DNA of 64,000 nucleotides from Desulfobulbus oligotrophicus (GTDB lineage: Bacteria > Desulfobacterota > Desulfobulbia > Desulfobulbales > Desulfobulbaceae). The position numbers and the translations under genes were made by a program. Below the pieces are notes generated by a model, which made no database searches, was not told the origin of the DNA, and saw nothing but the letters and a program-made list of their open reading frames with translations. The stretch's first letter is position 1. Each line of letters opens with the position of its first letter. The DNA lies in assembly GCF_016446285.1 (NCBI RefSeq), contig NZ_CP054140.1, positions 291,501-355,500 on the forward strand. Reading direction: 5' to 3'. This document shows positions 48,294 through 64,000 of this stretch, piece by piece.

Positions 48294-49382
48294 TCATGGT
48301 TGGTCACCCGACTCGGGTTCCCAGTAAGGGAGCGTGGATTTCCCTGGTTTGTCAATAATGAACGCTACACTTTGTGCAGCCCTAGTCACCGCCACATATA
48401 ACTTCGCTGCCGGGATCGGATCCAGGTATGTGCCGGTCTGCACGAAATACGTGATGCCAGAGGTCGGTGCGATCAAAACTCGATTGAAGGTCATCCCCTT
48501 CGCGAGTCGGAAATTTATGTACTCAAGGTCGAAAGCCTTCCCAGAGTTAGCACTGTCCCGCAGGCACTGCGGACGGAATCGCCTCAAATACTCGCCGACA
48601 TGTGCGTGACGGAGGAGGAATACGCCGTCATGCCCGGTTACTTTCTCATTCACCGACTTTGTACATGGAAATGACCAACTGGCGTCGAAGATTGTGTCAG
48701 AGAACTCTGCGATCTTGGGATGGCAACGCCACGTGGTTGTATTCTCGGTGATCGACAGCACGCCGAGCGCCTCGCGTTCCCGAAACCAATTCACGGCCTC
48801 AGCATATGCGTACTTTTTGTTCTTGCCGCTTCGTGGATTTGTGGAGAGCACTGCCTGTCGGATATCCCCGACCATCCGTACCTCCGCCGCCGAGCTGAGA
48901 AGTACATCTACAATTTCCCAATCGTGGCCACTCAGGTCTTGAACTTCGTCGATGAGAATTTCGTCGTAAATACACTCAATCCTGCGCAAGAGCGCGCCCT
49001 TGCTGGCTCCGACCAATTCATGCGCCAAGCGTCCCAGCTCGGATCTGTAGACACACCCGTGCGCGTCAAGAAAACGATTTCGACCCTTGGCCATCCGGTG
49101 TGGTTCGCCTTCAAAGTTAAAGCCGCAAACCCTCTCGCCGGCGAACATAAAGGGCAAAAATGGCCGCGCAAACTCGCGCAGCAGAAAAGTAAACCAACCC
49201 ATGACGACAATGTTTGGGCGATCACCCGCGTACTTCGCAAGACGGCTGCGCAATTCGGACTGGTTGGCTTGCGTGTACGTTAAGACCAGTGCACGTCGAT
49301 CGTGTGGTAGTGAGGCACAGTGTTCGACGATGCCCTGCGTCTTGCGAGACCCAGCAACTGCGAGCATGATGAAGTTAGCCAT
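48294..49382 (-). CDS. gajB: UvrD/PcrA-like helicase, GajB-like partner of the OLD nuclease
   Basis: A 362-residue compact superfamily 1 helicase. Motif I is AVAGSRKT, Ia VLTYTQANQSELRSRL, II ILIDEVQDLSG, III VRMVGDIRQAV, IV TTTWRCHPKIAEFSD, V KGMTFNRVLIAP and VI KLYVAVTRAA. It lacks the large 1B/2B insertions of UvrD, so it is small, as in Gabija GajB, though GajB is usually near 490 residues. Its ATG lies within the end of the upstream nuclease gene (8-base overlap). In Gabija systems GajB is thought to sense DNA termini or nucleotide depletion and license GajA. Confidence 0.83.
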   Translation of the reverse strand: MANFIMLAVAGSRKTQGIVEHCASLPHDRRALVLTYTQANQSELRSRLAKYAGDRPNIVVMGWFTFLLREFARPFLPFMFAGERVCGFNFEGEPHRMAKGRNRFLDAHGCVYRSELGRLAHELVGASKGALLRRIECIYDEILIDEVQDLSGHDWEIVDVLLSSAAEVRMVGDIRQAVLSTNPRSGKNKKYAYAEAVNWFREREALGVLSITENTTTWRCHPKIAEFSDTIFDASWSFPCTKSVNEKVTGHDGVFLLRHAHVGEYLRRFRPQCLRDSANSGKAFDLEYINFRLAKGMTFNRVLIAPTSGITYFVQTGTYLDPIPAAKLYVAVTRAAQSVAFIIDKPGKSTLPYWEPESGDQP

Positions 49383-50976
49383 GGATAAACGTCGCCGCGT
49401 CGTCCATATACTTTGGAGGAATTATTTGCTGTTGAGCGCTGGCGATGCGAAGTGCTGTCTCCGTCTTTTCTCGCTTCATCCATACTGCCAAGTTGGCCGC
49501 ATCGCTAACGCCAAGAACCCTCCTGAGCACCTCCTCTTCATTATGGTAGAGCAACTGCGGTTCGAGGGTGTGCCCACGAGACGGGACGCCAATGAAGAGT
49601 TCGCGTCTCCCTGCGACCAACCATGTCTGAAGTGAGGTACGCAAATCATCCGGTTCAGCGCCGTCATTGTCCCGAATGGCTGCTACAGTCTTGTCGAGCG
49701 CAGCACACAGCTCCAAGCAACGGCCTAGCGACAGTCCGCGCATACTGAGCACATCGATGCCCAGCGCCATCGGGCGCTTTCCGTATTTGTCTTCAAAGAT
49801 ACGCTCAAAAAGGATCTCGTCGGAAGGGCCTTCGACTAGCACGATCTTGTTCGCCAAGACCATTCGAAGTGTGTCGTATCCGGGAAGTTTCTGAAAATAG
49901 CCGACCGTGCCTGAATCCAATTCTGACAGCTTGCGGGGGATATCGCCTCCGAGCAACTGGAGGAAGTCTAGCCCGAGGCGATTGAGCACGAATGAACTGT
50001 GGGTTGTAACAAATAGTTGCTGATGTTCGCCGGCAAGCGACTCGATGCGAGAGAGGAGAGTCGTGAGGCTCGTATGGGACAGATGGTTTTCGGGCTCCTC
50101 GACCATGACGAAGGACGCGCGCTCGGAATGACGGCTCATGGCTAGAGAAATCTTGATTGCCGCCTGCTGACCCTGCCCTGACATCGAAAACGGCACGTTG
50201 CTAACGTGTGGTATTATCGCCCCTTCCCAGGATGTTCGCGTGCTTTGATCCATCTCGAGGGTGATCGGCTGGTTATGCAGACCTGCGTGCGTTTTAGTCA
50301 TTCGATCGTTGACACTCTTCAAAGCACCAGCGGACATTGACGCCTTGATTTCGCGATATGCGACGGATATCGCGGCGCGTTCGTCTGGCTGAAGGCCATC
50401 GTTTAGAATGTGTCTCATGTGGTAGTCGACACCGCTAGATGATCGAACCGTCCGCGAGTCTATTATCGCTGTCGCTAACTGCTTTGGCCGACTTGTAATG
50501 ACGCAATCGGCGAACGAGCGCCAATCGATCATGTAGTACTCAACAGGCAGGATATTTGACGCCCTCTTTATCCATTCTTCAAGTTCAGCACCATAGTCAG
50601 GGTTTGGCAGCACGCGCATCGTTATGCCTGGGCATGCGTTAGTTGGCACTTCGCTATTGATCGCACCGCATAACTGCTGCAGTTCATTACGATTATCAAG
50701 GTACAGTTCAATGCGAATCTCAGGCCACGGAGCTCGTTTACCAGCGGCCCGATTCCGGACGAAGTCCTTGATTAGTTCAGTGTTGAACCAATACGGGTTG
50801 AGCTCTTCGGTGGCTGTACGCCCATTAATGCGCCCAGTCAAGGCAAGGGCGATTGCCTCCATCAAAGTTGACTTGCCGCTCTCATTGGCGCCAACAATGA
50901 GATTAAGGCGTTGATTTGGCTCGAAGATGAGATTCTTGTATATCCGGTAGCCTTGAATCTTTACTTTTGTAATCAA
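49375..50976 (-). CDS. gajA: OLD-family ATPase/TOPRIM nuclease, GajA-like
   Basis: A 533-residue class 2 OLD nuclease. The N-terminal ABC-type ATPase has GANESGKS (residues 29-36), a signature FSMSGQGQQAAIKISLAMS and Walker B FVMVEEPENHLSH; the D-loop/H-switch is FVTTHSSFVL. The C-terminal TOPRIM nuclease has Glu in VLVEGPSDEILFER and the acidic pair in RDNDGAEPDD. The start is TTG with GGAGG six bases upstream. An OLD nuclease followed immediately by a UvrD-like helicase is the definition of a class 2 OLD/Gabija anti-phage operon. The AT-rich upstream region contains TATTAT-like boxes. Confidence 0.87.
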   Translation of the reverse strand: MITKVKIQGYRIYKNLIFEPNQRLNLIVGANESGKSTLMEAIALALTGRINGRTATEELNPYWFNTELIKDFVRNRAAGKRAPWPEIRIELYLDNRNELQQLCGAINSEVPTNACPGITMRVLPNPDYGAELEEWIKRASNILPVEYYMIDWRSFADCVITSRPKQLATAIIDSRTVRSSSGVDYHMRHILNDGLQPDERAAISVAYREIKASMSAGALKSVNDRMTKTHAGLHNQPITLEMDQSTRTSWEGAIIPHVSNVPFSMSGQGQQAAIKISLAMSRHSERASFVMVEEPENHLSHTSLTTLLSRIESLAGEHQQLFVTTHSSFVLNRLGLDFLQLLGGDIPRKLSELDSGTVGYFQKLPGYDTLRMVLANKIVLVEGPSDEILFERIFEDKYGKRPMALGIDVLSMRGLSLGRCLELCAALDKTVAAIRDNDGAEPDDLRTSLQTWLVAGRRELFIGVPSRGHTLEPQLLYHNEEEVLRRVLGVSDAANLAVWMKREKTETALRIASAQQQIIPPKYMDDAATFIHG

Positions 50977-51302: not shown

Positions 51303-54300
51303 TTACTCCACCAATTCATGGACAAAGACACCCTTCTCCGTCCCAAGAGCACGGGCGGCCTGTGCAACCATCGAGTGATGGGTAAAGACCAACACCTGAG
51401 TTTTCTGCGCAAAGTCGGCGAGGACCTCGAGACAGGCCTTGCTGCGCTTGTCATCGAAACCGACCATGATGTCATCGACCACGAAAGGCACAGGATCCTG
51501 ATGGTCCCGTTGCAGTTCCATGGTGGCGAGTCGCAAGGCCAGGAAGAGCTGGTCACGGGTGCCATCGCTCATGCCATCGACACTCACCTCGGCCTTGTCG
51601 GCGCGAACGCCGAGTAGCACTGGCTTGCCGTTGTCATCGACCTCATCGCGAAGGCGCGAAAAGGAGCCCAGGGTGAGCTTTGCGAACAACTCGCCGGCTC
51701 GCCTGAGAACCGGCGTTTGATTATTCTGGCGGTGGCGTTCCATCTGCTCCTCGAGAATGAGGCGAGCTATAGTGAGCCGCAGATACTGCTCCGCATTGGG
51801 GACGATACCGGCTAGCAACTGCTCGGCTCGTTCCGCGGCCTCGGCAGCTTTCGACGAGCCATCCAGAGCCTGGATCTGGACGAGCAGAGCCTGCCTCTGG
51901 TCCCGCTTGGCATCTCGCCGGCTCGCCAGGTCGGACAGTCTGGCATCGAGCTGCGACAGATCGTCGCCCACCTGGTCCACGTCTAATTCTTGGGCTTCTT
52001 TTTCCAACTCATCGATGCTGTGCCCCTCACCTGACTGATGGAGCTGCTGCTGAAGAGTCTCGAGACGAGAGATCAGCTGGCGTTTCTGGCACGAGTGCTC
52101 CTCGACTGGAGCCAACTCCTCATCGGACGAAACTCCTGCTTCGATCCGCAGGGCGGCAAGATTCTGCTCGGCAAGCAGGATGTCCTGGTGAGCCTCGGCG
52201 ACCTCCTCTTCCAGCTCGCTAATCTGAGCTCGAAGTTTCTGCAAGCTGGCGGCATCGGCCTGAGCCTTGCCAAGTCGCTTGACCAGACTCTGGGTTAATT
52301 CCGCTGGAGTTTGTTTTCCCACCTCGAGGCAAATCCGCTGCACAAGCTGGGCCACTGCTGCAGTAAAGCGCTCCTCGTCTTTGTCCATGCCATAGATTCG
52401 CTTGTGGGCGGTGTCGGCATCTTTGAGCTCCCTGAACAGCTCCTCGAGCTTCTCAATTGTCGCGAGGGCAAGCTCAGGATGAGGTTTTGTCCCAAGCCCC
52501 AGCCCTTCGACAGCCTCGGCCCAAGTTGCTCCCCAGCTTTGCAGGTCGTCATCGGCAAGGCGCAGAGTATCCGTCGCACCCTTGAGCTGTACCTCGAGCT
52601 TTTGCAACGAAGCCTTGAGTTCACCTTTACGCCTAATTGCAGTTTCCTGCTGGCTGACGAACTGCTCGCATCGGGCAAGGAGCGACTCGAGTTCGTCCGC
52701 CTTAGATTCTTGCTGCTGGCCGAGCTTCTCAAGTTCGGCAGAGAGTGCCTCGATGTGTGAAGTCAGAATGGCTTCCAGCGACCGGACTTCTGCCCTTGCC
52801 CTGTCAAGCTGTTCAGCCTTCTGCAGAAGCTGCTCCACACGCTGCAGCCACTCCTTCATTTCCTTGGGAGTACCGACCTTGTCTGCGATCCCGCTCCACA
52901 CAGCTTGCCAGGCGTTCTCGAGCTGGGCACGGGCGGTTACCAATTCACTCAGCTTGCCGTTGAGCCCGGAAAGAACCTCTGTCCTGGTTTGGATTTGGGT
53001 CTCCAGCGATGCCCGTTCGTGAACTCTCTGGGCATCATGTCGAAGCCTGTCACCGACGTCGTCGGCTGCCAACACGGCCTGCTCGTAGGCGTCTGGGAGA
53101 TTCTTGCTCCCCGCGTACTTCACAGCAGCATCCCCCGGGTCCACCACCCCGTCCACGTACGTACCTCGAATGAGCCTCCATCCCTGCTCCCGGTGACCGC
53201 GGGCTGCAAGGAGATCTTCGAGGGAGGGGACTTCGCTTGAGCGAAGCAATATCTTCAGACTCTCCTGGTGATGGTCTAGCTCCTGTTCGGCCTCGACCTT
53301 CCGACGGGTGGTCTCGCGAGTCTGCTCGTCCAGTTGATCGAACTTTTTCTCGAAACTATCCAAAACAGCCTTCTCAGGCATGGCTCGCCTGGCCAGCGCT
53401 TCGAGAGTGCCGTCGAACCTGCCCAAACGGGACAGCTCGACGGAGCAAGCATCTTCCTGCTGATCCGCCGCATCGCGGGCCTTGCGGAGCATCTGCGCCA
53501 GATCACCTGACTTGCGGGCAGCCAGGACAGCGGCCTTGAGCGAGGCCACGTCCTTGCCAGCTCCGGGCACGGCCTCGAGTTGCTGCAGAAGACTGGTCTT
53601 TTCATCGGCCAGCTCGCGCTGCTTGGCCACGATCTGGCTAGCCTTTTGCTTCAAAAGGCTCCATTCCTGCGCAAGCCCAACGATCAATTTCTTTTTGTTG
53701 AGAAGTGGTTTCATGGTCTCGACGGATTCGAGGTCGAGGTCTGGGCGGATGCTCGTGAGCATGGCTTGGGCCGCGTTGCGGTGCTCGCGACGCTTGGCAT
53801 CCTGTACTGGTTTGTCTTTGACCGACTTTTGAAAAGCGCCAAGCTGAAGCTGCAGATCCTCGATGGCCTCTTGATTCTCTAGCAATCCCTGAGGAACTTC
53901 AAGCCCTTCAGCCTCCTGTCTCACCCTGTCGAGCTTGGAGCTCGCCTTCTGTAGCCGCTCCCTGGCCAGGGACCGCTTATCCAGGGATGCTTGTCGACGG
54001 GAAGCGAAGTCTTCGGGGAGCAGCACCACGTCACCCAGGGCGGCCTGGCGATCGAGCAAATCGCGGCGCTCGGCCAGGGGACCAGTCACCCTTCTGAAGC
54101 GCTCGAGCTTGCTCTTGCTGCGTCGTGCCTCGGCGATCTCTTCGTCGATATTGGCAACGATCTCCTCTGCTTCCTTCAAAGACTTCTGAAGTTCCTTCCA
54201 CTCCCTCACAGAGACCGATTCGTGCTTTTCCTCTCGCCTGGCTTCCTTCAGCTTCACGGCGGCGTCGTTGATGATCTGGTTCTGGCCCCTGGATTTGAAC

Positions 54301-54818
54301 AGTTTGTCCGCTTCGGAAGCCAGTTCGCCGAGCAGGTCGGTCTTCCCCTGGGTGCCCAGCGCGGCACCGAACAGGGACTTTCCGAGATCGCCGCTCTGTT
54401 CGAGGATGGCCTGGCCACCCTGCACGAGCCCAGCGTGATCGATGCCGTGAAGCTGAGAGAAGAGTTTCTCATCAAGCCCCGGCAACAGCCTGCTCAAAGT
54501 ATCGTCGCCAATGGGCTGTTCGGTATCGGCACTGAGCAGGGTACCCTTGTTGCCCTTGCGCCTCACGCAGGCGATTTCCTTACCGTCCGAGGTCTCGAGT
54601 ACACCGCCCACCCGAAGCTGCTTGTGGTCGTGAACAAAATTATCCGTAGAACGGGCGTCGATGCCAAATAGCCAGGCCTTGAGCGCCCGCAGTGTTGAGC
54701 TCTTGCCCGCCTCGTTGGGGCCATGAACCACGTGCAGACCGGGCTTGCCGTCGCTCAGGTCGAGGGACTTTTTCGTGAATGGACCAAAGGCCAGCAAGTC
54801 GAGGCGCTTAATTTTCAT
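51303..54818 (-). CDS. SbcC/YhaN-like SMC-type ATPase
   Basis: A 1171-residue protein. Walker A HGPNEAGKSS (residues 32-41) begins an N-terminal ATPase half of AAA_27/YhaN type; two long coiled-coil stretches rich in Glu, Lys, Ala and Leu fill residues ~190-1000; the C-terminal half has the signature GMSDGTRDQLFLALRLA and Walker B FVVDDIMVGFDD, followed by VLVFTHHSMV. No zinc-hook CxxC is visible in the coiled-coil middle, so it is nearer YhaN than classic SbcC/Rad50. Its start overlaps the stop of the phosphoesterase gene by four bases; the pair should form an SbcCD/Mre11-Rad50-like nuclease complex. Confidence 0.88.
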   Translation of the reverse strand: MKIKRLDLLAFGPFTKKSLDLSDGKPGLHVVHGPNEAGKSSTLRALKAWLFGIDARSTDNFVHDHKQLRVGGVLETSDGKEIACVRRKGNKGTLLSADTEQPIGDDTLSRLLPGLDEKLFSQLHGIDHAGLVQGGQAILEQSGDLGKSLFGAALGTQGKTDLLGELASEADKLFKSRGQNQIINDAAVKLKEARREEKHESVSVREWKELQKSLKEAEEIVANIDEEIAEARRSKSKLERFRRVTGPLAERRDLLDRQAALGDVVLLPEDFASRRQASLDKRSLARERLQKASSKLDRVRQEAEGLEVPQGLLENQEAIEDLQLQLGAFQKSVKDKPVQDAKRREHRNAAQAMLTSIRPDLDLESVETMKPLLNKKKLIVGLAQEWSLLKQKASQIVAKQRELADEKTSLLQQLEAVPGAGKDVASLKAAVLAARKSGDLAQMLRKARDAADQQEDACSVELSRLGRFDGTLEALARRAMPEKAVLDSFEKKFDQLDEQTRETTRRKVEAEQELDHHQESLKILLRSSEVPSLEDLLAARGHREQGWRLIRGTYVDGVVDPGDAAVKYAGSKNLPDAYEQAVLAADDVGDRLRHDAQRVHERASLETQIQTRTEVLSGLNGKLSELVTARAQLENAWQAVWSGIADKVGTPKEMKEWLQRVEQLLQKAEQLDRARAEVRSLEAILTSHIEALSAELEKLGQQQESKADELESLLARCEQFVSQQETAIRRKGELKASLQKLEVQLKGATDTLRLADDDLQSWGATWAEAVEGLGLGTKPHPELALATIEKLEELFRELKDADTAHKRIYGMDKDEERFTAAVAQLVQRICLEVGKQTPAELTQSLVKRLGKAQADAASLQKLRAQISELEEEVAEAHQDILLAEQNLAALRIEAGVSSDEELAPVEEHSCQKRQLISRLETLQQQLHQSGEGHSIDELEKEAQELDVDQVGDDLSQLDARLSDLASRRDAKRDQRQALLVQIQALDGSSKAAEAAERAEQLLAGIVPNAEQYLRLTIARLILEEQMERHRQNNQTPVLRRAGELFAKLTLGSFSRLRDEVDDNGKPVLLGVRADKAEVSVDGMSDGTRDQLFLALRLATMELQRDHQDPVPFVVDDIMVGFDDKRSKACLEVLADFAQKTQVLVFTHHSMVAQAARALGTEKGVFVHELVE

Positions 54819-56077
54819 GATTCACTCCCTGTCTCCAGAAGTTTGCCAAGGAGCAACTCCTTAGCTTCTTGGATAAGCCTCGCAATGACCTCCTGGTCGT
54901 CAATTCGCAGCCCGTCCTCCGCGAGAAACACCTCTGCAGGGAGCTTTTCCCTGAAAGCGGTCAGGACTGTGTCGAGACCTCGCACTGCGCTTGGCACCTC
55001 CTTGACCTCCATAATGCTCTTCGCCAGCCCTCCCAGGGCTCCGTCTCCCGTGAGCACTGCCTCCCGGTCCAGCTTACTGATGGTGGCCACCACCACTTTT
55101 TCGATCCACAGACCCTCTCCATGCACTTCGGCGAAAAGCTCCATGAGCTTCTGCCGCAACCATTGGGTCCTACCTTGGAGTTCTGCGTGAACCGGACTTG
55201 ATCCCACGAAGCGTATCCGGGTGGCAACAATACGATCTTCGGCACTATCAAGAACCTCCTGCAGGGCCTTGCTGGCGCTATCCAGCACGCCCTGCATGCT
55301 GCTCACTGTGCCAAGGTCCACATCACAGTTTGCCCAGCGAACCACGTCCAGCGTCCGATGCTCGACGCTTTTGACCCGACCGTCCTCGACGGAAACCAGG
55401 CAGCAACCCTTGGGGCCGGTCTCACGAACATGACGCCCTTGAAGGCTACCAGGAAAGACAATCCAAGGTTCTGTCGAAACCTCCTCGCGTGCGTGTACGT
55501 GGCCGAGAGCCCAATACTGGTAATCCCTGGCCCGCAGATCGTCGAGTTTGCACGGGGCGTAGGCCGCATGGCCCTCGCGGCCATCGAGGCTCGTGTGCAA
55601 GAGGCCGATGTTGAACATCCCTGGCTTTGCCGCGGGGAAGCCAACGGCAAGGTTCTCTTCGACGTGCTGCTGGCTAAAACTTTGGCCGTGTATGGCGACC
55701 TCGAGGTCGTCAAGAAATTCTGTTTGGGGTTTGTTCGCCGGAAACAGGGTCAGGTTCTTCGGTTTCTCTAACGCTTTGGTGAGCTTGCTCTGGGCGTCGT
55801 GATTACCGAGGACGCCAAAGACCCGGATGCCTGCCCGGTCCAGCTCGCCCAGCTTCGTTGCCAAGAAGATCGCGGTGCTGAAGTCCTGCCAGGTGCCGTC
55901 GTAAAGGTCGCCTGCGAGTAGCACGAAGGCCACTTTCTCTTCGATGGCCAGTTCCACCAAGTTGTTGAAGGCCGCGCGGGTGGCGCCTCGGAGATCGTTG
56001 ACGGGTGCTTCTTCATACCTGGCCAGCCCCCGCAAGGGACTGTCGAGGTGTAGGTCGGCGGCGTGCAGGAATTTCAT
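54815..56077 (-). CDS. SbcD/YhaO/Mre11-like DNA-repair phosphoesterase
   Basis: A 420-residue calcineurin-like nuclease. The metal motifs are complete: DLHLDSP (Asp-x-His), LLAGDLYDG, LGNHDA, LHTSLDG and ALGHVHARE. The C-terminal ~150 residues are a capping/partner-binding domain. With the downstream SMC-like ATPase it should process DNA ends. AACGGAG lies just before the ATG. It lies in a minus-strand series with HD- and VWA-domain genes, an unusual context for a repair pair and more suggestive of defence or stress response. Confidence 0.9.
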   Translation of the reverse strand: MKFLHAADLHLDSPLRGLARYEEAPVNDLRGATRAAFNNLVELAIEEKVAFVLLAGDLYDGTWQDFSTAIFLATKLGELDRAGIRVFGVLGNHDAQSKLTKALEKPKNLTLFPANKPQTEFLDDLEVAIHGQSFSQQHVEENLAVGFPAAKPGMFNIGLLHTSLDGREGHAAYAPCKLDDLRARDYQYWALGHVHAREEVSTEPWIVFPGSLQGRHVRETGPKGCCLVSVEDGRVKSVEHRTLDVVRWANCDVDLGTVSSMQGVLDSASKALQEVLDSAEDRIVATRIRFVGSSPVHAELQGRTQWLRQKLMELFAEVHGEGLWIEKVVVATISKLDREAVLTGDGALGGLAKSIMEVKEVPSAVRGLDTVLTAFREKLPAEVFLAEDGLRIDDQEVIARLIQEAKELLLGKLLETGSES

Positions 56078-56128
56078 ATTGGGCTCCGTTTTATTACTTG
56101 ATTACGTCCATATCTGGTCTCGCACATA

Positions 56129-56689
56129 TCAACCATGAGCCAGCCTGCCTGCATTTCCGCGGTTCGTTTGGCCCTCAAGAGCAGTCTGGCCGAGAATATT
56201 CTTCGGAACAAACCCTGTGATGCTCCGCTGGATGGCCCATTCGATAGTTTTCGGGTCCCTCGCCGCCTCGGTGCAGAGAAATCTCGGGTCTGGTATTTTG
56301 CCAACGCGAGCGAGATCAAGCCGATCCCCGTCAAAACAGGTTTGCACCGTGCTGTCGACGTGAGTTTTGGCTTGGGTGTGCAGGCTGCACGCCGTGAAGA
56401 GCAGGTCGAACTCGTCATCCGGCAGTTGGTAGTATTTTCCCCGGTACAACTTGGCCAGTTGCGCGCCTCGAGGACCATGTTCCAGATCCTGTCCTTCGGA
56501 GAACCTTCGGCTATCATGAAACACCGCAAAGAGCCGTACCACCTGTTTGTTCGCACCTGTGGATTCCGCTAGATGGAGGCCATTTTCGTAGACCCTGGCC
56601 CAATGGCTGACGCCGTGGATACCGTTCCAATCCACCTGGAACTGATACTGCACCGCTGTGATGAGTTCGTTTGAGACAATATTGACCAT
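56129..56689 (-). CDS. HD-domain hydrolase-like protein
   Basis: A 186-residue protein with an HD-like metal-site series: HGVSHWARVYENG, FAVFHDSRRFSEG (His-Asp), EHGPRGAQLA, TACSLHT and DGDRLDLARVG. The last (DxDRLD) is typical of HD phosphohydrolases of the nucleotide-hydrolysing kind. A longer start at 56785 would overlap the previous gene; the ATG at 56689 just precedes VNIVSNELITAVQYQF and is preferred. It probably hydrolyses a nucleotide or a nucleotide-derived signal, which is interesting next to an RtcR-like sensor; substrate unknown. Confidence 0.78.
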   Translation of the reverse strand: MVNIVSNELITAVQYQFQVDWNGIHGVSHWARVYENGLHLAESTGANKQVVRLFAVFHDSRRFSEGQDLEHGPRGAQLAKLYRGKYYQLPDDEFDLLFTACSLHTQAKTHVDSTVQTCFDGDRLDLARVGKIPDPRFLCTEAARDPKTIEWAIQRSITGFVPKNILGQTALEGQTNRGNAGRLAHG

Positions 56690-56765
56690 GGAAATCAGAC
56701 CTGTTGAAGGATGTTGATGGCAATTGGTTAACCAGTCCTGGGGATCTTCCCCTGGTGAAGATGTT

Positions 56766-56948
56766 TCAGAGAAGTTGCGCCACAAAATAGATGCCTGCGA
56801 TTGGCAGTATAAATAAAGCCACCATACCCAGGCAGCCTGGATGATTGCCCGGCCTCGTACTCTCCCTTTTCATTTCCTCAAAAAGGATGCAATCCAAGGC
56901 AGGGTCGTCATCGAGTAGCCCGTTTGGCTCCTCATACTCATCGTTCAT
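56766..56948 (-). CDS. Small tail-anchored membrane protein
   Basis: Sixty residues with an acidic N terminus (MNDEYEEPNGLLDDDPALDC) and one hydrophobic C-terminal span (GCLGMVALFILPIAGIYFV). The ATG at 56948 has GGAGG five bases upstream, a strong reason to prefer it over the codon at 56987. It lies between the 126-residue gene and the HD gene in the same minus-strand operon. No family recognised. Confidence 0.6.
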   Translation of the reverse strand: MNDEYEEPNGLLDDDPALDCILFEEMKRESTRPGNHPGCLGMVALFILPIAGIYFVAQLL

Positions 56949-56999
56949 CGAATCCTCCGTGGCAGTTTTGGAATGGCAACCTATCAATTCCCGGTGAAA

Positions 57000-57380
57000 T
57001 CATGCTGGGGGTCTGCCGATAACATTTCCCGGTTCAGTGCCCTTCAAATACGCGCTGCGGCCATCATCGCCCATTGCTATCCAGGAGCATGGTCGTGTCG
57101 GGCCTCCAAAGAGTGATTCTATCACACAACAATCTTTCCAGAAAAGCTGCCCATCAGTTTTCTCGGTTGGCTCAAACCCCAAGGCAGTCCACTCTTCCAA
57201 GAGGGACTTGATATCCAAGGGGTTCATGGCGCCGTCCCGGAAGAGGTGGGCATCGAACCAGACCCGACCGCCGATCAATTGCCGGTGATCCTTCAGGCAC
57301 TGCTCCCAACCTTCCGGATATTTTTCCCTGATAACAGAAATCGGCACAACAAAATCGATGAATTCAAGGGCGATGGCCAT
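57000..57380 (-). CDS. Hypothetical protein in the VWA-HD-SbcCD operon
   Basis: A 126-residue protein: ALEFIDFVVPISVIREKYPEGWEQCL, LIGGRVWFDAHLFRDGAM, LEEWTALGFEP, WKDCCVIESLFGGPTRPCSWI. The pattern suggests a small alpha/beta domain seen in scattered bacterial proteins, but I cannot name it. GGGAGGG precedes the ATG. It is separated from the VWA gene by 34 bp and is likely co-transcribed. Confidence 0.65.
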   Translation of the reverse strand: MAIALEFIDFVVPISVIREKYPEGWEQCLKDHRQLIGGRVWFDAHLFRDGAMNPLDIKSLLEEWTALGFEPTEKTDGQLFWKDCCVIESLFGGPTRPCSWIAMGDDGRSAYLKGTEPGNVIGRPPA

Positions 57381-57414
57381 AATCCCTCCCTAACCCGTTA
57401 TGCAATGCTCAAAA

Positions 57415-58062
57415 TCAGACGCCCGCTTTTTCCTGCGCGTCATAATCTGACTCCTCATAACACATATCCACCTTTTTCCCGCGTCTGAAGGAAGCCAGGT
57501 TGGTGGACAGGGAACACAAGGCTTCGCTTAACCCTGCTGCATTGTTGGCATATTTCATGGCTCTGTCCCGCCTTATGCCAATATCGGCGGCGACGCTGAC
57601 CGCATCGATATTCGCGCCAAGAAAAACAAACTCCCAGGAATACACTTCCTGCTGGTCCCTGATCATCGATTTGATTGTGCTCAAGGAAAACTCCTTGGAG
57701 GCGTTTTCTTCGCCATCGGTTTGAATCAGGAAAATAACCTTTTCGGGTCGATCCGATTCGGCCATGGCGCTTAAGCGTTTGCCGGTAGACAGAATAGCTT
57801 TGCCAACCGCGTCGAATAAAGCCGTCATGCCACGGGGCACATAGGTGGTCTCGTCCAGATGGCTGACCTCCTGGATGTTGATCGCTTCGCAGTCAACCTC
57901 GTAACGGTCGTCAAACTGAACAAGGGTAAAGGTTGCCTCCTCTTCAACTTGTTTTTGTTCATCGACAAAGGTATTGAAGGCTCCGATGACTTCGCTGGTC
58001 AGCACTCCCATGGAACCGGATCTATCGAGCACCACGGTGATGTCGCTATAGTTGTATTTCAT
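57415..58062 (-). CDS. VWA-domain protein
   Basis: A 215-residue stand-alone von Willebrand factor A domain. The MIDAS metal site is complete: DRSGSM (residues 11-16), Thr in RGMTALFDAVG, and Asp in IQTDGEENAS. No signal peptide or membrane span, so cytoplasmic. The ATG at 58062 follows GGAGGGTGG; the longer ORF start at 58266 lies in the promoter region. VWA proteins act as metal-dependent adaptors and occur in Ro/Rsr RNA repair, TerY and several defence systems. It is the first gene of the minus-strand operon, downstream of the sigma-54-like element. Confidence 0.88.
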   Translation of the reverse strand: MKYNYSDITVVLDRSGSMGVLTSEVIGAFNTFVDEQKQVEEEATFTLVQFDDRYEVDCEAINIQEVSHLDETTYVPRGMTALFDAVGKAILSTGKRLSAMAESDRPEKVIFLIQTDGEENASKEFSLSTIKSMIRDQQEVYSWEFVFLGANIDAVSVAADIGIRRDRAMKYANNAAGLSEALCSLSTNLASFRRGKKVDMCYEESDYDAQEKAGV

Positions 58063-58492
58063 GCCACCCTCCAGATTCAAATTGTTTTTGGAACTTGCCT
58101 GGACAAACGATGCCATGGCCGGTAGGACAAAAAGCAACCCGTGTTGATTTGCTGCCTGCCGATGAGCATTCACCAAGTGCTGGTTCCTGGTTGCGATCAA
58201 GCGTTCGTTGCCCTCGATCACTGCGGCTCTCGCTCTCCCGGCCCGATCAGTTGATCCCGGCATCATCTACATCCGCTTTCAATAATGATGTGGTCGCATG
58301 TGAGAAGGCACTATCCGTGCCAGATGTGTCACTTCGTTTACATTTACCCCTAACGCTATAAATTTATGTGAAAAATACCCATGCATTCGCCGGCTGCGCG
58401 AGTAGTTGCCGCCATAACTCCGAGCTCATCTTTCAAACGTGAAGCACAAAAAAATTGTTATTTCGCAAGAATCTTTGTAGTTCTTGGTGGCT
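58063..58492. other. Divergent control region between the VWA operon and the RtcR-like gene
   Basis: About 430 bases without a gene. It holds the palindromic sigma-54-like element at 58307-58322 and, further right, an AT-rich stretch with TATAAA (58357-58362) that could be the -10 of a housekeeping promoter for the regulator. Enhancer sites for the regulator are probably here but I could not define them. Confidence 0.5.
58307..58322 (-). promoter_or_regulatory. Palindromic sigma-54-type promoter element
   Basis: On the minus strand TGGCACGGATAGTGCC matches the -24/-12 consensus (TGGCACG-N4-TTGC) with one mismatch in the -12 half (GTGC). It reads toward the VWA operon 245 bases away. Because arms GGCAC and GTGCC are inverted repeats, the plus strand also has GG-N10-GC spacing, toward the RtcR-like gene. 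An enhancer-binding protein of the right class is encoded next to it. Confidence 0.55.
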
Positions 58493-60007
58493 ATGAACAA
58501 TCGACTTCTATTTTGCTGGTTAGGGGCCACAGATCTGAGGGCTGCAAGTGGGCAGGCGGATATTGGGTTGGGGCCAGTCGGCCAGGCTGCACGCTCCAGA
58601 GACTACCAGGAAATCATACTGCTGAATAATTGGAACAGGTCTGAGGCCGAGAACTATGTTAACTGGCTGCAAGGCCTGACCTCTTCTCCCATTTCGCTGA
58701 TCCATGTTGAGCTGTCCGGGCCAACAAAATTCGGTGAAATCTATCAGGCAGCCTCGAAAGCGGTTTCTGCAAAGATTGGTGAGGGTGCCGAGGCGCAATT
58801 GGTGTTTCACCTGAGTCCAGGAACCCCGGCTATGGCTGCGGTCTGGATACTGCTGGCCAAGGCCAGGTTCTCAGCCGAACTCATCGAGTCCTCAAAAGAC
58901 CATGGTGTTCGCGCCGCCTCTGTGCCTTTTGATATTGCCGCCGATTTCCTCCCTGATCTTTTTAGAAAACCGGACAAGCATCTTGAGCGCCTCGCCTCTG
59001 GTCTCCCTGAGACCGCTCCAGAATTCGACGATATCATCCACCGTAGCGAGGTGATGCAGCGGATTATTCTCAAAGCTCGCCGTGTAGCGCCACGCTCCAT
59101 TCCTGTGTTGATCGAAGGCGAATCCGGAACCGGCAAGGAGCTGTTCGCTCGTGCCATTCACGACGCCGGTCCTCGCAAGCATAAACCTTTCGTGGCCATC
59201 AACTGCGGGGCTATCCCCTCTGAGTTGGTCGAATCCGAACTGTTTGGTCACGAAAAAGGAGCCTTTACCGGAGCCGTCACTGCACGTGTCGGCCATTTTG
59301 AGGCCGCGCACACCGGCACCATTTTTCTTGATGAGATCGGTGAGTTGCCAAAAGAAATGCAGGTCAAATTGCTCCGCACTCTGCAAGAAGGCGAGGTCAG
59401 ACGGATTGGCGCAGCCCAGCCCAGGAATGTTGATGTGCGCATTATTGCAGCCACCAATCGAAATCTTATCGACGAGGTAGCCGCCGGCTCCTTCCGCGAG
59501 GATCTTTTCTTCCGACTGGCAGTAGCAGTAATCAACCTGCCACCTTTAAGGGAGCGCGAAGGCGATCTCAGTCTGTTGATCGATCGTTTCCTGGAGAGAA
59601 TCAATCGGGAAAGTGAAAGTGAGCCCGGATATAAACACAAAAAAATTTCTGCATCAGCAAGAAATCTTCTCTTGAGACATCCCTGGCCGGGCAATATCCG
59701 CGAGTTGCAGAATACGCTCACCAGGGCGGCGGTATGGTCAATGGATGAAGAACTGGTCGAGCAGGATATCCGTGAGGCCTTGCTGCCTGTTCCGGCGAAA
59801 GGCCGGATGACTGGCGAAGAAACCATTCTCAACCGCCCATTCACGCTTGGTTTCAGCCTGCCGGAGGTGATGAAGACCGTAGCTGTCCACTACCTCGAAA
59901 GAGGCCTCGCCGAACACGATGGCAATAAAACAATCGCTGCGAAAACCCTAGGTCTGCCGAGCTACCAAACCTTGACCAACTGGCTCAAGAAATACGGTCT
60001 CGAATAA
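58493..60007 (+). CDS. RtcR-like sigma-54 activator with N-terminal CARF-type sensor domain
   Basis: A 504-residue enhancer-binding protein. Residues 1-175 match the RtcR/CARF sensor: LLFCWLGATDLRAA, IHVELSGPTKFGEIYQAASKAV, and LVFHLSPGTPAMAAVWILLAKARFSAELIESS, which parallels the TTGTHVAQICWFLLTEARY segment of RtcR. Then comes a complete sigma-54 AAA+ domain: Walker A GESGTGKE, GAFTGA loop, FLDEIGELP, sensor RLAVAVINLPPLRER, HPWPGNIRELQN. A Fis-type HTH ends the protein (NKTIAAKTLGLPSYQTLTNWLKKYG). RtcR senses RNA-derived ligands and drives RNA-repair genes. Here no rtcA/rtcB is adjacent: instead hsdR follows after 39 bases, and a VWA-HD-SbcCD operon lies opposite. The ATG at 58493 is chosen over TTG 58484. 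Confidence 0.85.
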   Translation: MNNRLLFCWLGATDLRAASGQADIGLGPVGQAARSRDYQEIILLNNWNRSEAENYVNWLQGLTSSPISLIHVELSGPTKFGEIYQAASKAVSAKIGEGAEAQLVFHLSPGTPAMAAVWILLAKARFSAELIESSKDHGVRAASVPFDIAADFLPDLFRKPDKHLERLASGLPETAPEFDDIIHRSEVMQRIILKARRVAPRSIPVLIEGESGTGKELFARAIHDAGPRKHKPFVAINCGAIPSELVESELFGHEKGAFTGAVTARVGHFEAAHTGTIFLDEIGELPKEMQVKLLRTLQEGEVRRIGAAQPRNVDVRIIAATNRNLIDEVAAGSFREDLFFRLAVAVINLPPLREREGDLSLLIDRFLERINRESESEPGYKHKKISASARNLLLRHPWPGNIRELQNTLTRAAVWSMDEELVEQDIREALLPVPAKGRMTGEETILNRPFTLGFSLPEVMKTVAVHYLERGLAEHDGNKTIAAKTLGLPSYQTLTNWLKKYGLE

Positions 60008-60046
60008 GTTGGCACGACCGTTGCTTTGAAGGAGGGCATGAAGATC

Positions 60047-63000
60047 ATGGACTCGATAAATTTTGAGATGCTGCGCAAGCAATGGCCAGAGCTGGCCACT
60101 TTGGGCGGCTTTGCCGAGCTGTATGTCCGCACCGATGCTTCGAGCGCGCTGATCAAACTGCGCACCTTTGCCGAGCAGATGGTGGCCGGCATCTATCAGT
60201 TCCACAATCTTGCCCTGCCGTATCAGCAAAACCTCTTCGATCTGCTCGCCGAGGAACCCTTCAAGCAAGCCGTACCCAAGGTGGTTCTGGACAAACTGCA
60301 TCAAATTCGGCTGGACGGCAACAAAGCGGCGCACGGCAAGCCGGTGGACAGTCCGGCCGCCCTGGCCTGCCTGCGTGAGGCGTGGGGTCTTGGCTGGTGG
60401 TATTTTGCCACCTATGGCGGCGGCAAAGCCGACGAATGTTTTGCCTTTCAGGAGCCTCCCGAAGACATCAAGGCCAAACTCAAGAAGGAGAAGAAAGCGG
60501 CCCTGGAGAAGCTCGCCGCCCAGGAGGCGCAACTTCAAGAATTGCTCCAGCAGGTCGATGCCCTACGCGCCCAGGCAAAAGCCGCCGAGAAATCCGAGGC
60601 CGAACTGCATGCGCTCAAGACCGCCGGCCAGGCTGCCGCCGACGCCCTCAAGTTTGATGAGGCAACCACCAGAAAGCGCCTCATCGACAAACAACTGATC
60701 GCTGTTGGCTGGAATATCGATCCCAACGGCGGCAACACCGCTGAAGTGTCCCTGGAGGAGGCTGTTGCCCATCAACCCACCACCACCGGCACGGGTTATG
60801 CCGATTATGTCCTCTGGGATGATACCGGCAAGCCGCTGGCAGTCATCGAGGCCAAAAAAACCTCCGCCAGCCCCGAGAACGGCCGCACCCAGGCGAAGCT
60901 CTATGCGGATGGGCTGGAAAAGAAGCACGGTCAGCGACCGGTGATCTTCTACACCAATGGCTTTGATATCACCATCTGGGACGACGCCCAAGGGTATCCT
61001 CCCCGCCAGATATTCGGCTTTTACTCCAAGGACAGCCTGCAATACCTGATCCGCCAGCGCCAGACCAAGCAACCCCTCGCCAAGGTGGAGCCGAAAAAAG
61101 AAATCATCGGCACCCGCATGTACCAGATTCAGGCCATCCAAGCGGTCTGCGAACGCTTCAGCGCCAAGCAGCGCAAGGCCCTCATTGTCCAGGCCACCGG
61201 CACTGGCAAGACCAGGGTCGCAACCGCCATCATTGATGCACTGGTCCGCGCAAACTGGGGCATCCGGGTGCTTTTTCTCTGCGATCGCCTAGAACTACGT
61301 AAGCAGGCCAAGAACACCATCACCGATTTCATCAAGGAGCCATGGACCTACGTCACTTCGCAAACCGCGCAGGACAGGACCAAGCGGCTGTATTTCGCCA
61401 CCTATCCGGCAATGATGAAGATTTTTCAGACCTTTGACACCGGTTTTTTTGATCTGATCATCGCCGACGAGTCGCACCGCTCCATCTACAACCGCTACAG
61501 CGACCTGTTCAAATGGTTCGACAGCCTGCAGGTCGGCTTGACTGCCACACCGGTGGACAAGATCAACCGCAACACATTCCGGTTGTTCAACTGCCAGGAT
61601 AAGTACCCCACCGTCTACTACCCGCTGGAGCAGGCAATCAAAGAACACTACTTGGTCCCCTACGAGGTGTACACCCACACCACCGGCTTTTTACGCGATG
61701 GAATCAAATTCAACCAACTCTCCGAAGACCAGCGGGAAGAGCTGGAGGATGCCGGCGAGAATCCGGAGCTGTTTAACTTCGATCCCCAGGATATCGACAA
61801 GAAGATCTTCAACCGCGATACCAACCGCCAAATCATCCGCAACCTGATGGAGCACGGTATCCGCGACGGGATGGGCCAGTTACCCGGTAAGACCATCATC
61901 TTTGCCCGCAACCACAACCATGCCGTGCTGCTGGCCCAGGTGTTCGACGAGCTGTATCCCCAATACGGCGGCACCTTCTGCCAGGTGATCGACAATTACG
62001 ACCCGCGTGCCGAGCAGTTGATCGATGACTTCAAGGATCCGGCCAATCCGCTGACCATCGCTGTTTCCGTGGATATGCTCGACACCGGCATCGACGTGCC
62101 CGAGGTGGTCAATCTTGTCTTTGCCAAGCCGATCTTTTCCTGGGTCAAATTCTGGCAGATGATCGGCCGGGGCACCCGCCTCTGCGAAAATCTGTTCGGA
62201 CCGGGCAAGGATAAGAAAAATTTCCGCATCTTCGACCACTGGGGCAACTTCGAGCGCTTCGAGATCGACCGTCCCGAAGCCGACCCGGCTCCGTCCAAGT
62301 CAATCATGCAACTGGTTTTCGAGGCGCGAATCAGTCTCGCGGAAACCGCTCTGGCCAAAGGCGAGCTGGACACCGTCCGCGATACCGTCGAGCTGATCCG
62401 CAAAGACCTCAACGCCCTACCTGAGGAGACCATCGCTGTGCGGGAGCGGTGGCGGGAGAGAAGCGGCCTGCTTGCCCAGGGCGTGCTCGACCAGTTTGCC
62501 CCTGCCACGGTGGCCGCGCTCCGCAACGAGATGGCGCCGCTCATGCAGTGGGTCTATACCCGCGACCATAGCGATGCCTATGCCTTTGACCTGCTGACCG
62601 TCAATGCCCAGGTGGAATTGCTGCGTCAGTCCGGGCGTTTTACCGACTGCAAGGATCAGATCCAGGAACGGGTGAACGGATTGCTTAAACATCTCAATCC
62701 GGTACAGGCCAAGATTGATCTGATCAAGCAGGTAGCGTCCAGCGAGTTTTGGGATATGATTAATGTTGCCACGCTGGAGACACTGCGACAGGAGCTGCGG
62801 GGCATCATGCACCACCGGCAGAAACCGACCGTGAATCCGTTGCCGCCCAAGACAATTGACGTTGCCGATGGCGAAGTGGAACTGAACCGCCGCACCAGCA
62901 ACGTCAAGTCCATCGACATGCAGCTTTACCGCCAACTGGTGGAAGAGACCCTGGAGCAGTTGTTCGTCACCAACCCGGCCCTGCAGAAGATCAGGCGGGG

Positions 63001-63406
63001 CGAGCCGGTTTCGCAGCAGGATCTGAACTCGCTCGTCTCCCTGGTCCTGACCCAGAATCCGGACGTCAATCTGGAGTTGCTGCGCGAATTTTTTCCGGAT
63101 TCGACTCCGCCGCTGGATTTCATCATCCGCACCATCATCGGTATGGAGCCCGAGGCCGTGGAAGAGCGCTTTGCCGCCTTTGCCCGCAGGTTTGCGGATA
63201 ACTCCCGCCAAACCCTGTTCCTGCGCCTGCTCAAGAACCACATCCAGAAATACGGGGCGATCACGGTGGAAAAACTCTACGAGGAACCCTTTACCACCAT
63301 CGCCAGCGACGGCCTCGACGGCGTATTTACCAGCGAAGACCAGGTGGACGAACTGATCACCATCCTTGAAACCTTTCAACCCAAAACAGGAGCACCAACG
63401 GCATGA
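60047..63406 (+). CDS. hsdR: Type I restriction enzyme R subunit
   Basis: A 1119-residue HsdR. An N-terminal DUF4145-like helical domain ([25 protein letters not shown]) and a coiled segment ([24 protein letters not shown]) precede the HSDR nuclease with Asp in ADYVLWDD and Glu-x-Lys in AVIEAKKT. The motor has [47 protein letters not shown], and a second RecA domain ending [10 protein letters not shown]. The C-terminal EcoEI-R-type domain contacts the methylase. It cuts unmodified DNA after ATP-driven translocation. Start at 60047 has AGGAGG 11 bases upstream; ATG 60038 and TTG 60026 are alternatives. The stop overlaps hsdM (ATGA). Confidence 0.93.
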
Positions 63407-64000
63407 TTACCGGCCAACTGAAAAGCGATATCGACAAACTCTGGGACGATTTCTGGAGCGGCGGCATCGCCAACCCGCTCTCGGTCATCGAGCAGATCTC
63501 CTTTCTCATGTTCGCCCGCCTGCTCGACATCCGGGAGATTCGGGAAGAGAAGAAGGCCAGTCGCACCGGCAAACCCTTCCGTCGCCTGTTTAGCGACAAA
63601 CCCCTTGCCGACGAGGTGCGCGGCAAAATGCTGGGCGACCTGGTTAAAACTGAACAGGATCTGCGCTGGTCCCATTTCAAGCATCTGAACGGCGAGGATA
63701 TGCTCCGGGTGGTTCGTGACGGCGTCTTTCCCCATTTCAAGACCGTGGCTGTCGATGGCGCCCGATTCGGCGAATACATGAAGGATGCCCAGTTGCTGAT
63801 CCAGAAAACCAACCTGCTGGTCACCGCGGTCAATACCATCGACCAGTTGCCGCTCACCAAAGGCGACACCAAGGGCGATCTGTACGAATACATGCTGGGC
63901 AAACTCACCACTGCCGGCATTGCCGGGCAGTTCCGCACCCCGCGCCATATCATCGCCAAAATGGTGGAAATGCTGGCCCCCAAGCCGGATGAAATTATTG
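63403..64000 (+). CDS. hsdM: Type I restriction-modification DNA methyltransferase, N-terminal part (runs off window)
   Basis: The first 199 residues of HsdM are visible: the N-terminal helical HsdM_N domain ([39 protein letters not shown]), ending in [32 protein letters not shown], the segment that precedes the SAM-binding motif. The catalytic NPPF motif lies beyond the window. Coupled to hsdR by a four-base overlap; hsdS is expected downstream. It methylates adenine at the site set by HsdS. Confidence 0.93.

Follow-up and report, generated by a model that had tools for sequence, protein, structure and literature searches.

A CARF-domain sigma-54 activator as a probable two-outlet switch of a defence island in Desulfobulbus oligotrophicus

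Regulator and locus

We analysed a defence locus in a 64,000-nt stretch of NZ_CP054140.1 from Desulfobulbus oligotrophicus (the window; positions are window coordinates unless prefixed C1 or with an L-number). The gene of interest encodes a CARF-domain sigma-54 activator. It is followed on the same strand by type I restriction-modification (R-M) genes and faces a divergent run of genes on the minus strand. The regulator, the restriction genes and the candidate promoters and operators are as follows.

58493..60007, plus strand: RtcR_PspF2 regulator with CARF (residues 1 to ~178), sigma-54 AAA+ (~182-432) and Fis-type helix-turn-helix (HTH; ~468-502) domains, from profile matches and a structure model
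60010..60024, plus strand: 3' outlet, candidate sigma-54 -24/-12 site TGGCACGACCGTTGC, 2 nt past the regulator stop and pointing into hsdR
58308..58322, minus strand: divergent outlet, candidate sigma-54 site TGGCACGGATAGTGC, ~142 bp from the upstream operator, its -12 C 246 nt before the VWA start codon
58464..58479, no strand assigned: putative upstream operator (upstream activating sequence, UAS) CGCAAGAATCTTTGTA, matrix score 13.4, window rank 1, 4 mismatches
58447..58462, no strand assigned: weaker upstream partner, 17 bp away, matrix score 8.7, window rank 4
59656..59671, no strand assigned: putative embedded operator in the regulator coding sequence, residues ~389-393 (ARNLL), matrix score 12.6, window rank 2
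59636..59651, no strand assigned: embedded partner operator, exactly 20 bp upstream of 59656, matrix score 10.1, window rank 3
60038..63406, plus strand: hsdR (EcoEI_R_C domain, DUF4145 N-terminus; Pfam and PADLOC), first ATG at 60038 and inner ATG at 60047
63403..64000, plus strand: hsdM, running past the window end to ~64962 (N6_Mtase, 204 bits)

The regulator matched the PADLOC profile RtcR_PspF2 (PDLC01995) over its full length with 659 bits (residues 5-505 to profile positions 2-481). It also matched Sigma54_activat (PF00158) with 238 bits, and HTH_8 with 21.9 bits, marginally below the cut-off of 22. An AlphaFold2 model of residues 1-180, built from 41 sequences, reached a pLDDT of 84.4. 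Its nearest folds were Csm6, Can2 and Card1, and all 46 PDB matches at E<=0.001 were CARF-type by title (Csm6, Can2, Card1, Cdn1, Cad1, ring nucleases and VC1899). By this model the sensor is a CARF fold, the outcome of a structure prediction that the original prediction, made from the letters of the DNA, had proposed as a check. That prediction called the protein an RtcR-like CARF/sigma-54 activator. The CARF-AAA+-HTH architecture bears this out, but the protein is not RtcR proper, since it scored 341 bits against the curated cut-off of 650 for that family (NF038308). Likewise, no rtcA or rtcB was seen at the locus, as first stated, but the genome does hold an RtcB gene elsewhere (C1:60480-61574, ~290 kb from the regulator); rtcA was not searched for.

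Relatives were collected in one scan of a genome collection with a 13-sequence CARF alignment, which returned 374, and the best 80 were used (L070-L149). By title they come from Desulfobacterota/Deltaproteobacteria, Planctomycetota, Acidobacteria, Myxococcota, Magnetococcales, Hydrogenedentota, Latescibacteria, Gemmatimonadota, Gammaproteobacteria and others. The regulator was complete in 67; the other 13, with an open-ended frame or fewer than 480 residues, were left out. Among those 13, L100 and L131 have a strong sigma-54 site at the expected position and L077 and L095 have none. A separate search of 395 genomes of the phylum with PDLC01995 matched all 395 at E 1e-60, because the AAA+ part of the profile fits sigma-54 activators in general, and 14 matches in 13 genomes exceeded 610 bits. 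In the 13 loci from these matches, a 3' site scoring at least 12 was present in 10 (exceptions L013, L019 and L022) and a divergent site of at least 13 within 200 nt in five. Three of these loci (L013, L014 and L016) appear to recur among the 80 relatives as L120, L082 and L111.

Candidate sigma-54 promoters

Sigma-54 promoters carry a -24/-12 consensus, searched for here as the strict pattern TGGCACGN5TGC. This had only two perfect matches in the 64-kb window, and both flank the regulator. The whole 3.1-Mb genome had five perfect matches, with eight for a reversed control pattern. When up to two mismatches were allowed, the window held 94 matches against a chance mean of 90, so only the perfect matches and their positions carry weight. 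By weighted score (maximum 14.2; strong, at least 12; weak, 11-12), the 3' site was the only one to reach the full 14.2 among the top window sites listed for both strands. The promoter region of E. coli rtcBA, a positive control, holds a site of the same score.

The 3' site recurs among the relatives. Within -20 to +125 of the regulator stop, 52 of the 67 complete relatives had a site scoring at least 12, a further five scored 11-12 and ten scored lower. In 46 of the 57 with a score of at least 11, the site lay at +1 to +5. Random 170-nt windows of the same loci reached 12.5 in 26 of 4000 draws. Site presence also tracks the direction of the neighbouring gene. At the 3' position (-12 to +60; 64 loci) there were 43 strong, four weak and six absent sites where the next gene is on the plus strand, two, one and six where it is on the minus strand, and two, none and none where no gene is near. 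At the divergent position (77 loci) the corresponding counts were 19, six and 15 with a minus-strand neighbour, one, two and 24 with a plus-strand neighbour, and three, none and seven with no near gene.

Putative operators upstream of and inside the regulator gene

The palindrome TACAAGA-NN-TCTTGTA, with up to two mismatches, was found in 17 of 80 regions upstream of the regulator (79 relatives and the window) and in two of 1600 shuffled regions. A position matrix was trained only on upstream sites with up to three mismatches, leaving the window's own copy, which has four, outside the training set. Over the 64-kb window its ranks 1-4 were 58464, 59656, 59636 and 58447, two of them upstream of the regulator gene and two inside it. 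Among spacings of 16-31 bp tested for a second palindrome copy, 20 bp was prominent in both the upstream and the embedded sets. The embedded pair lies ~345 nt before the 3' promoter.

Codon choice across 68 regulator genes (the 67 complete relatives and the window's own) points to the same place. The deepest dip in third-position GC fell at window residues 389-393, ARNLL (z -5.1), and the codons GCA AGA/AGG AAT/AAC CTT are retained there even in genes whose third-position GC is 0.85-0.90. We compared the tandem pair at -390 to -310 from the stop with synonymous shuffles preserving the protein and its codon pool. The pair was significant in 60 of the 68 genes at p<0.05 and in 55 at p<0.01, while nine control windows in the same genes gave 1-10 of 68 and 0-2, respectively. 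Of the 58 genes that have a 3' site of at least 11 within -20 to +125, 56 showed a significant pair, as did four of the ten lacking such a site. Eight genes failed (L088, L093, L118, L119, L122, L123, L128 and L149). In all but L149, which scored 14.3 with p = 0.06, the pair score was negative and no 3' site of at least 12 lay within 125 nt, L128 having a weak site of 11.0. Testing single embedded sites gave significance at p<0.05 in 49 of the 63 loci that have a 3' site and in seven of the 14 that lack one, indicating that coupling of the single site to the 3' site is imperfect and that the tandem-pair test is sharper.

Five of seven plasmid matches (H25 and H27 were left out), none of which had gone into model building, formed a further test set. 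The embedded pair was significant in all five (p<=0.008; score positive in four). A strong 3' site lay at -18 to +22 in four, and the Polaromonas site was weak and at +166. Taken together, the sequence comparisons suggest an embedded operator pair written by synonymous codon choice in the coding sequence of the regulator's AAA+ domain. A pattern search of the D. oligotrophicus genome for further operators gave seven matches against 21 for the control, but the pattern was mis-spaced and the result is uninformative on the regulon.

A sister subfamily of eight relatives (~431-461 bits; L026-L030, L032, L033 and L036) has a sigma-54 site 86-120 nt past the regulator stop in six. The principle is apparently shared, though with the operator in ordinary intergenic DNA, and this architecture may here use a second operator code. 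The matrix found no embedded palindrome in the seven of these loci scanned (best score 5.1). By eye, several loci of the subfamily carry a different, AACCTGGGTT-like tandem repeat directly past the regulator stop.

Restriction genes and the hsdR start

The restriction genes behind the 3' outlet form a type I R-M set with HsdR, HsdM and HsdS in order. HsdR matched PADLOC REase_I with 935 bits and the Pfam HsdR domains, whilst staying under NCBIfam equivalog cut-offs. The hsdM gene overlaps hsdR by 4 nt, and hsdS lies downstream of it outside the window (Methylase_S, 123 bits). From the regulator stop to the inner hsdR ATG at 60047 is 39 nt. The original description of a regulator followed after 39 bases by hsdR-hsdM on the same strand was thus accurate, and hsdS beyond the window completes the set. 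Conservation of this adjacency had been named as a check, and an HsdR-family match was present in 41 of the 80 relatives. Because the genes overlap, a single induced transcript is likely to carry hsdR, hsdM and hsdS. A basal promoter, or read-through out of the regulator gene, may also feed them.

The promoter sits close to the first hsdR start codon. In the window the first ATG (60038) is 14 nt past the -12 C, or predicted +3. Of 29 loci in which the HsdR N-terminus aligns directly behind the regulator, 28 have their first in-frame ATG 13-15 nt past the -12 C (exactly 14 in 22; the exception, L023, at 30). Transcription from sigma-54 promoters starts at a usual spacing from the -12 element, and by this spacing the first hsdR ATG should lie at, or within 2-4 nt of, the expected start. 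The induced hsdR mRNA should therefore be nearly leaderless. The inner ATG is 22-53 nt past the -12 C, with a Shine-Dalgarno-like stretch between the two ATGs in nine of 28 loci. First genes other than hsdR behind the 3' outlet have longer leaders.

Past hsdS follow a 438-aa protein, an SNF2 helicase, a GmrSD_N/DUF262 protein, an AAA_15/DUF3696 ATPase and two further genes. The ATPase and a ~310-aa family-less protein (possibly PLD-like by eye) form a two-gene module (L011:11230-13826; clusters C2/C3, e.g. L080:11596-14349) that recurs straight after the 3' outlet or behind hsdRMS.

Divergent gene run and cargo of related loci

The minus-strand run behind the divergent outlet comprises the following genes.

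57415..58062, minus strand: VWA-domain protein (domain match), first gene past the divergent outlet
57000..57380, minus strand: 126-aa protein without a match in family searches
56129..56689 (start and end approximate), minus strand: HD-like protein, weak (Pfam HD E 0.03; NCBIfam HDIG E 0.0057, under its cut-off)
54815..56077, minus strand: YhaO/SbcD-like metallophosphoesterase (profile matches)
51303..54818, minus strand: YhaN-like AAA_27 coiled-coil ATPase (AAA_27, 235 bits)
49375..50976, minus strand: Gabija GajA, TTG start assumed (PADLOC GajA model, 679 bits)
48294..49382, minus strand: Gabija GajB (GajB model, 454 bits)

A six-gene minus-strand operon headed by the VWA gene had been proposed. 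The divergent run does start with VWA, but it counts seven genes including Gabija, the terminal pair that had gone unnamed, and gaps of ~310 nt before the HD-like gene and 326 nt before GajA make a single transcript for all seven uncertain. We infer that GajAB may form part of the divergent transcript. The SbcCD label given to the pair at 51303-56077 does not stand: SbcD (TIGR00619) scored 48 bits, under its cut-off of 77.65, and the ATPase matched AAA_27 and had no SbcC (TIGR00618) match at E<=0.01. We take the pair to be YhaO/YhaN-like. A leader of ~234 nt (58063-58296, minus strand) is predicted from the divergent promoter to the start codon of VWA, and its last ~200 nt are open in the VWA frame from an ATG at 58266. 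An Rfam search of 48-64 kb, this leader included, gave no match at E<=1.

None of the seven minus-strand proteins had a match in any of the 80 relatives (tblastn, E 1e-5). A conserved partnership of the regulator with VWA, HD and SbcCD genes, whose adjacency had been another proposed check, was therefore rejected. Gene by gene, frequencies differ. The VWA protein was present in just 3 of 395 genomes of the phylum (E 1e-15; own genome included, as in the following counts), and 224 phage records hold relatives of it, the closest at 39.5% identity. The 126-aa protein occurs in 2 of 55 related genomes and had no match in a plasmid search, the YhaO-like protein occurs in 9 of 55 at E 1e-20, and the HD-like protein, of a family common in the genus, in 27 of 55 at E 1e-3. 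With the set shared by none of the relatives and its members so unequal in frequency, the minus-strand run reads as a patchwork. The HD-like protein has a 76% paralogue in the same genome (C1:1579887-1580396).

Other lineages hold other divergent cargo. Gabija stands there in L104 (site 12.5) and, by clustering, in L117 (13.2), a metallophosphoesterase/SMC-type pair in L071 (12.2), ARPP-1 proteins, by profile matches, in L082, L088 and L103 (11.2, 13.5 and 11.7) and DUF2130 in L109 (13.7). Since these neighbours differ among loci and none of the 80 relatives shares the window's set, the outlet recurs, as judged from sequence, while its cargo varies.

Three plasmid loci and the wider surroundings gave side observations. 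In the Rhodoferax and Polaromonas plasmids (L192:7702-13479 and L194:8095-13497) the regulator stands ahead of genes for a VWA protein, a PP2C phosphatase, a kinase and an AAA protein, so the pairing of VWA with such a regulator recurs there in another form. On the Azotobacter plasmid pAcX50d (L193:10939-12552) the R-M genes are annotated as fragments and HsdR is unlisted in an incomplete gene table; this copy may be decayed. The D. oligotrophicus defence locus itself resembles cargo of an integrative and conjugative element (ICE). ICE-like features lie at window 24081-48042 and L011:14726-17566, and comprise a tRNA-Leu, a tyrosine integrase, a TraG/TraD-type coupling protein, RadC and ArdC, and later a transposase and an SLT transglycosylase.

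Discussion

Our analysis argues that the regulator is very probably a local two-outlet sigma-54 switch of the defence island, driving the genes on both sides. The original prediction had it wired to the type I R-M operon and to the divergent operon. This wiring to both outlets is very likely because of the CARF fold, the sigma-54 promoters and the matching tandem operators at both. In the proposed mechanism the regulator binds both operator pairs, with TACAAGANNTCTTGTA as its proposed target. A ligand on the CARF domain would allow oligomers of the regulator, hexamers in this model, to assemble on either pair and loop to both promoters, switching on hsdRMS and the genes behind it on one side and VWA and its followers on the other. 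The embedded pair would serve the 3' promoter from ~345 bp. The upstream pair, about 140-160 bp from the divergent promoter, would serve that promoter and probably also tunes transcription of the regulator itself. The induced hsdR mRNA would start nearly at its ATG. The CARF domain probably responds to an RNA end or to some other nucleotide alarm.

A number of observations weigh against this switch. The divergent site has a weighted score of 13.0 and another minus-strand site in the window scores 13.2; the former stands out only through the strict pattern and its position. No divergent site was found in 15 of the 40 loci with a minus-strand neighbour, and none reached 12 in the five plasmid loci, although two of these have such a neighbour. 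At 17 bp, the upstream partner in the window misses the 20-bp register (the register itself, 58444/58445, scores 5.2), and an upstream operator was clear in one of the five plasmid loci (L192, 10.4), the others scoring 4.3 or less. The test window for the embedded pair was chosen with the element already in view. Among the seven genes without the pair, four were borderline (p 0.055-0.095) despite their negative scores, and one of the seven, L123, has a site at +177. The joint absence of pair and 3' site amounts to about three events on the tree, and a phylogenetic independent-pairs test was far underpowered (4 starred pairs, median p 1). The relatives also include loci from the same genome (L081/L083, L120/L140 and L122/L128). 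Finally, L107, L120, L140 and L144 retain the embedded pair although no 3' site lies within 125 nt; the first three have none of at least 12 within 700 nt and L144 has one at +494.

These last four loci would also fit embedded operators that autoregulate or road-block transcription of the regulator and do not enhance the 3' promoter, as would the operators directly upstream of the regulator start. We consider this unlikely, given that the seven loci pair-less by score are also those without a 3' site of at least 12 within 125 nt. It is very unlikely that the AT-rich codon run is an RNA or translation feature of the AAA+ domain, such as a pause site or mRNA structure. The run does sit in a conserved protein stretch (KISASARNLL), and synonymous constraint alone is silent on which molecule reads it. 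However, it matches a model built from non-coding upstream operators only and has the same 20-bp tandem spacing, it is mostly gone where the 3' promoter is gone though the protein domain remains, and the seven scanned sister-subfamily loci gave nothing above 5.1. That the protein is an ordinary RtcR controlling a distant rtcBA, and merely neighbours the R-M genes, is highly improbable. It has the architecture of RtcR and the genome has an RtcB gene, but its score is far under the RtcR cut-off and none of the five strict sigma-54 sites of the genome lies near RtcB (the strict pattern only; weaker sites there were not scanned). The promoters and operators are instead located here, and recur beside R-M genes in many lineages.

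That the CARF ligand is, in place of an RNA end, a cyclic oligoadenylate from the type III CRISPR system of this genome is possible but doubtful. The genome's Csm1/Cas10 gene (C1:2665134-2667620, 596 bits) leaves room for such a ligand, and the closest folds are Csm6, Can2 and Card1. Nevertheless, the conserved regulator loop HLSPGTPAM has no lysine, and the corresponding loop of Csm6 and Csx1 carries TGGTK. RtcR families mostly lack a positive residue after strand 4 (Makarova 2014, PMC4012209), and RtcR itself binds tRNA 5' halves bearing a 2',3'-cyclic phosphate (PMC7790460), which makes RNA ends the leading candidate. A search of the genome for a CBASS (cyclic oligonucleotide-based antiphage signalling system) synthase (SMODS) found none.

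The original prediction named no described system with this gene set, yet the link between regulator and R-M was already in print. Makarova 2014 (PMC4012209) predicted such proteins to be sigma-54 activators of downstream genes, including R-M, which may sense RNA with cyclic phosphate ends and regulate RNA repair or DNA restriction. The 2024 CoCoNuT paper (PMC11090510) described RtcR-headed superoperons that include type I RM. These share with our locus an RtcR-like gene heading restriction genes, under predicted sigma-54 control by RNA-derived ligands; the promoters, operators and divergent outlet predicted here are not described in the parts of either paper that were covered. No CoCoNuT components (McrB-like, HEPN) were noticed in general scans of the proteins covered here, which were not genome-wide, did not use dedicated CoCoNuT models and relied on a 2023 PADLOC copy that may lack them. 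RtcR/rtcBA of E. coli and Salmonella has the same CARF-AAA+-HTH activator and -24/-12 promoter type (rtcBA site 14.2). Here, by contrast, restriction and defence genes replace rtcBA, the candidate promoter lies directly past the regulator's stop, a putative operator is embedded, and the RtcR score is below cut-off. The conserved intragenic sigma-54 promoters of E. coli (PMC4591121) are likewise sigma-54 regulatory DNA within coding sequence, conserved apart from the protein. In that case, as far as the paper was covered, it is a promoter that lies inside the gene, with a long 5' UTR, whereas here it is the putative operator of the activator that lies inside the gene encoding it, and a nearly leaderless mRNA is predicted. 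Gabija (GajAB) is known as a system; its models match the end of the minus-strand run and it also stands behind the L104 divergent site, but here it would come under a CARF sigma-54 activator. No description of a stop-abutting promoter, an embedded operator pair or a near-leaderless hsdR start was found in the covered parts of the open-access literature searched, where the papers listed for MADS also included no bacterial one; the portions of PMC9650030, PMC7159879 and PMC12839542 covered added nothing on promoters. What is new is the predicted wiring (promoters, embedded operators and near-leaderless start), whilst the R-M neighbourhood and the sigma-54 action were already published as prediction.

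A bolder extension of the two-outlet switch, which we hold to be rather unlikely, is a self-enhancer cassette in which the enhancer, written as synonymous code, and the promoter past the stop move as one piece, with abortive restriction and translation of hsdR by damaged ribosomes. If true, any defence module placed behind the cassette would become alarm-driven, and regulator, enhancer and outlet would travel between hosts together. Were hsdRMS kept off before the alarm, the enzyme would meet unmethylated host DNA on its appearance, and restriction would be abortive and self-cutting. Near-leaderless hsdR mRNA would still be translatable by damaged ribosomes without a working anti-Shine-Dalgarno sequence.

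The signals that switch defence islands on are mostly unclear. The locus raises the question of whether a type I R-M system can be held off until infection and then induced without killing its host. For a regulator class with a predicted role, unmapped as far as our searches show, precisely placed candidate promoters and operators are now at hand that recur in many bacterial groups, and the 2014 and 2024 predictions become directly testable at the bench. An enhancer that an activator gene carries in its synonymous codons would, if real, account for the transfer of such switches as single units.

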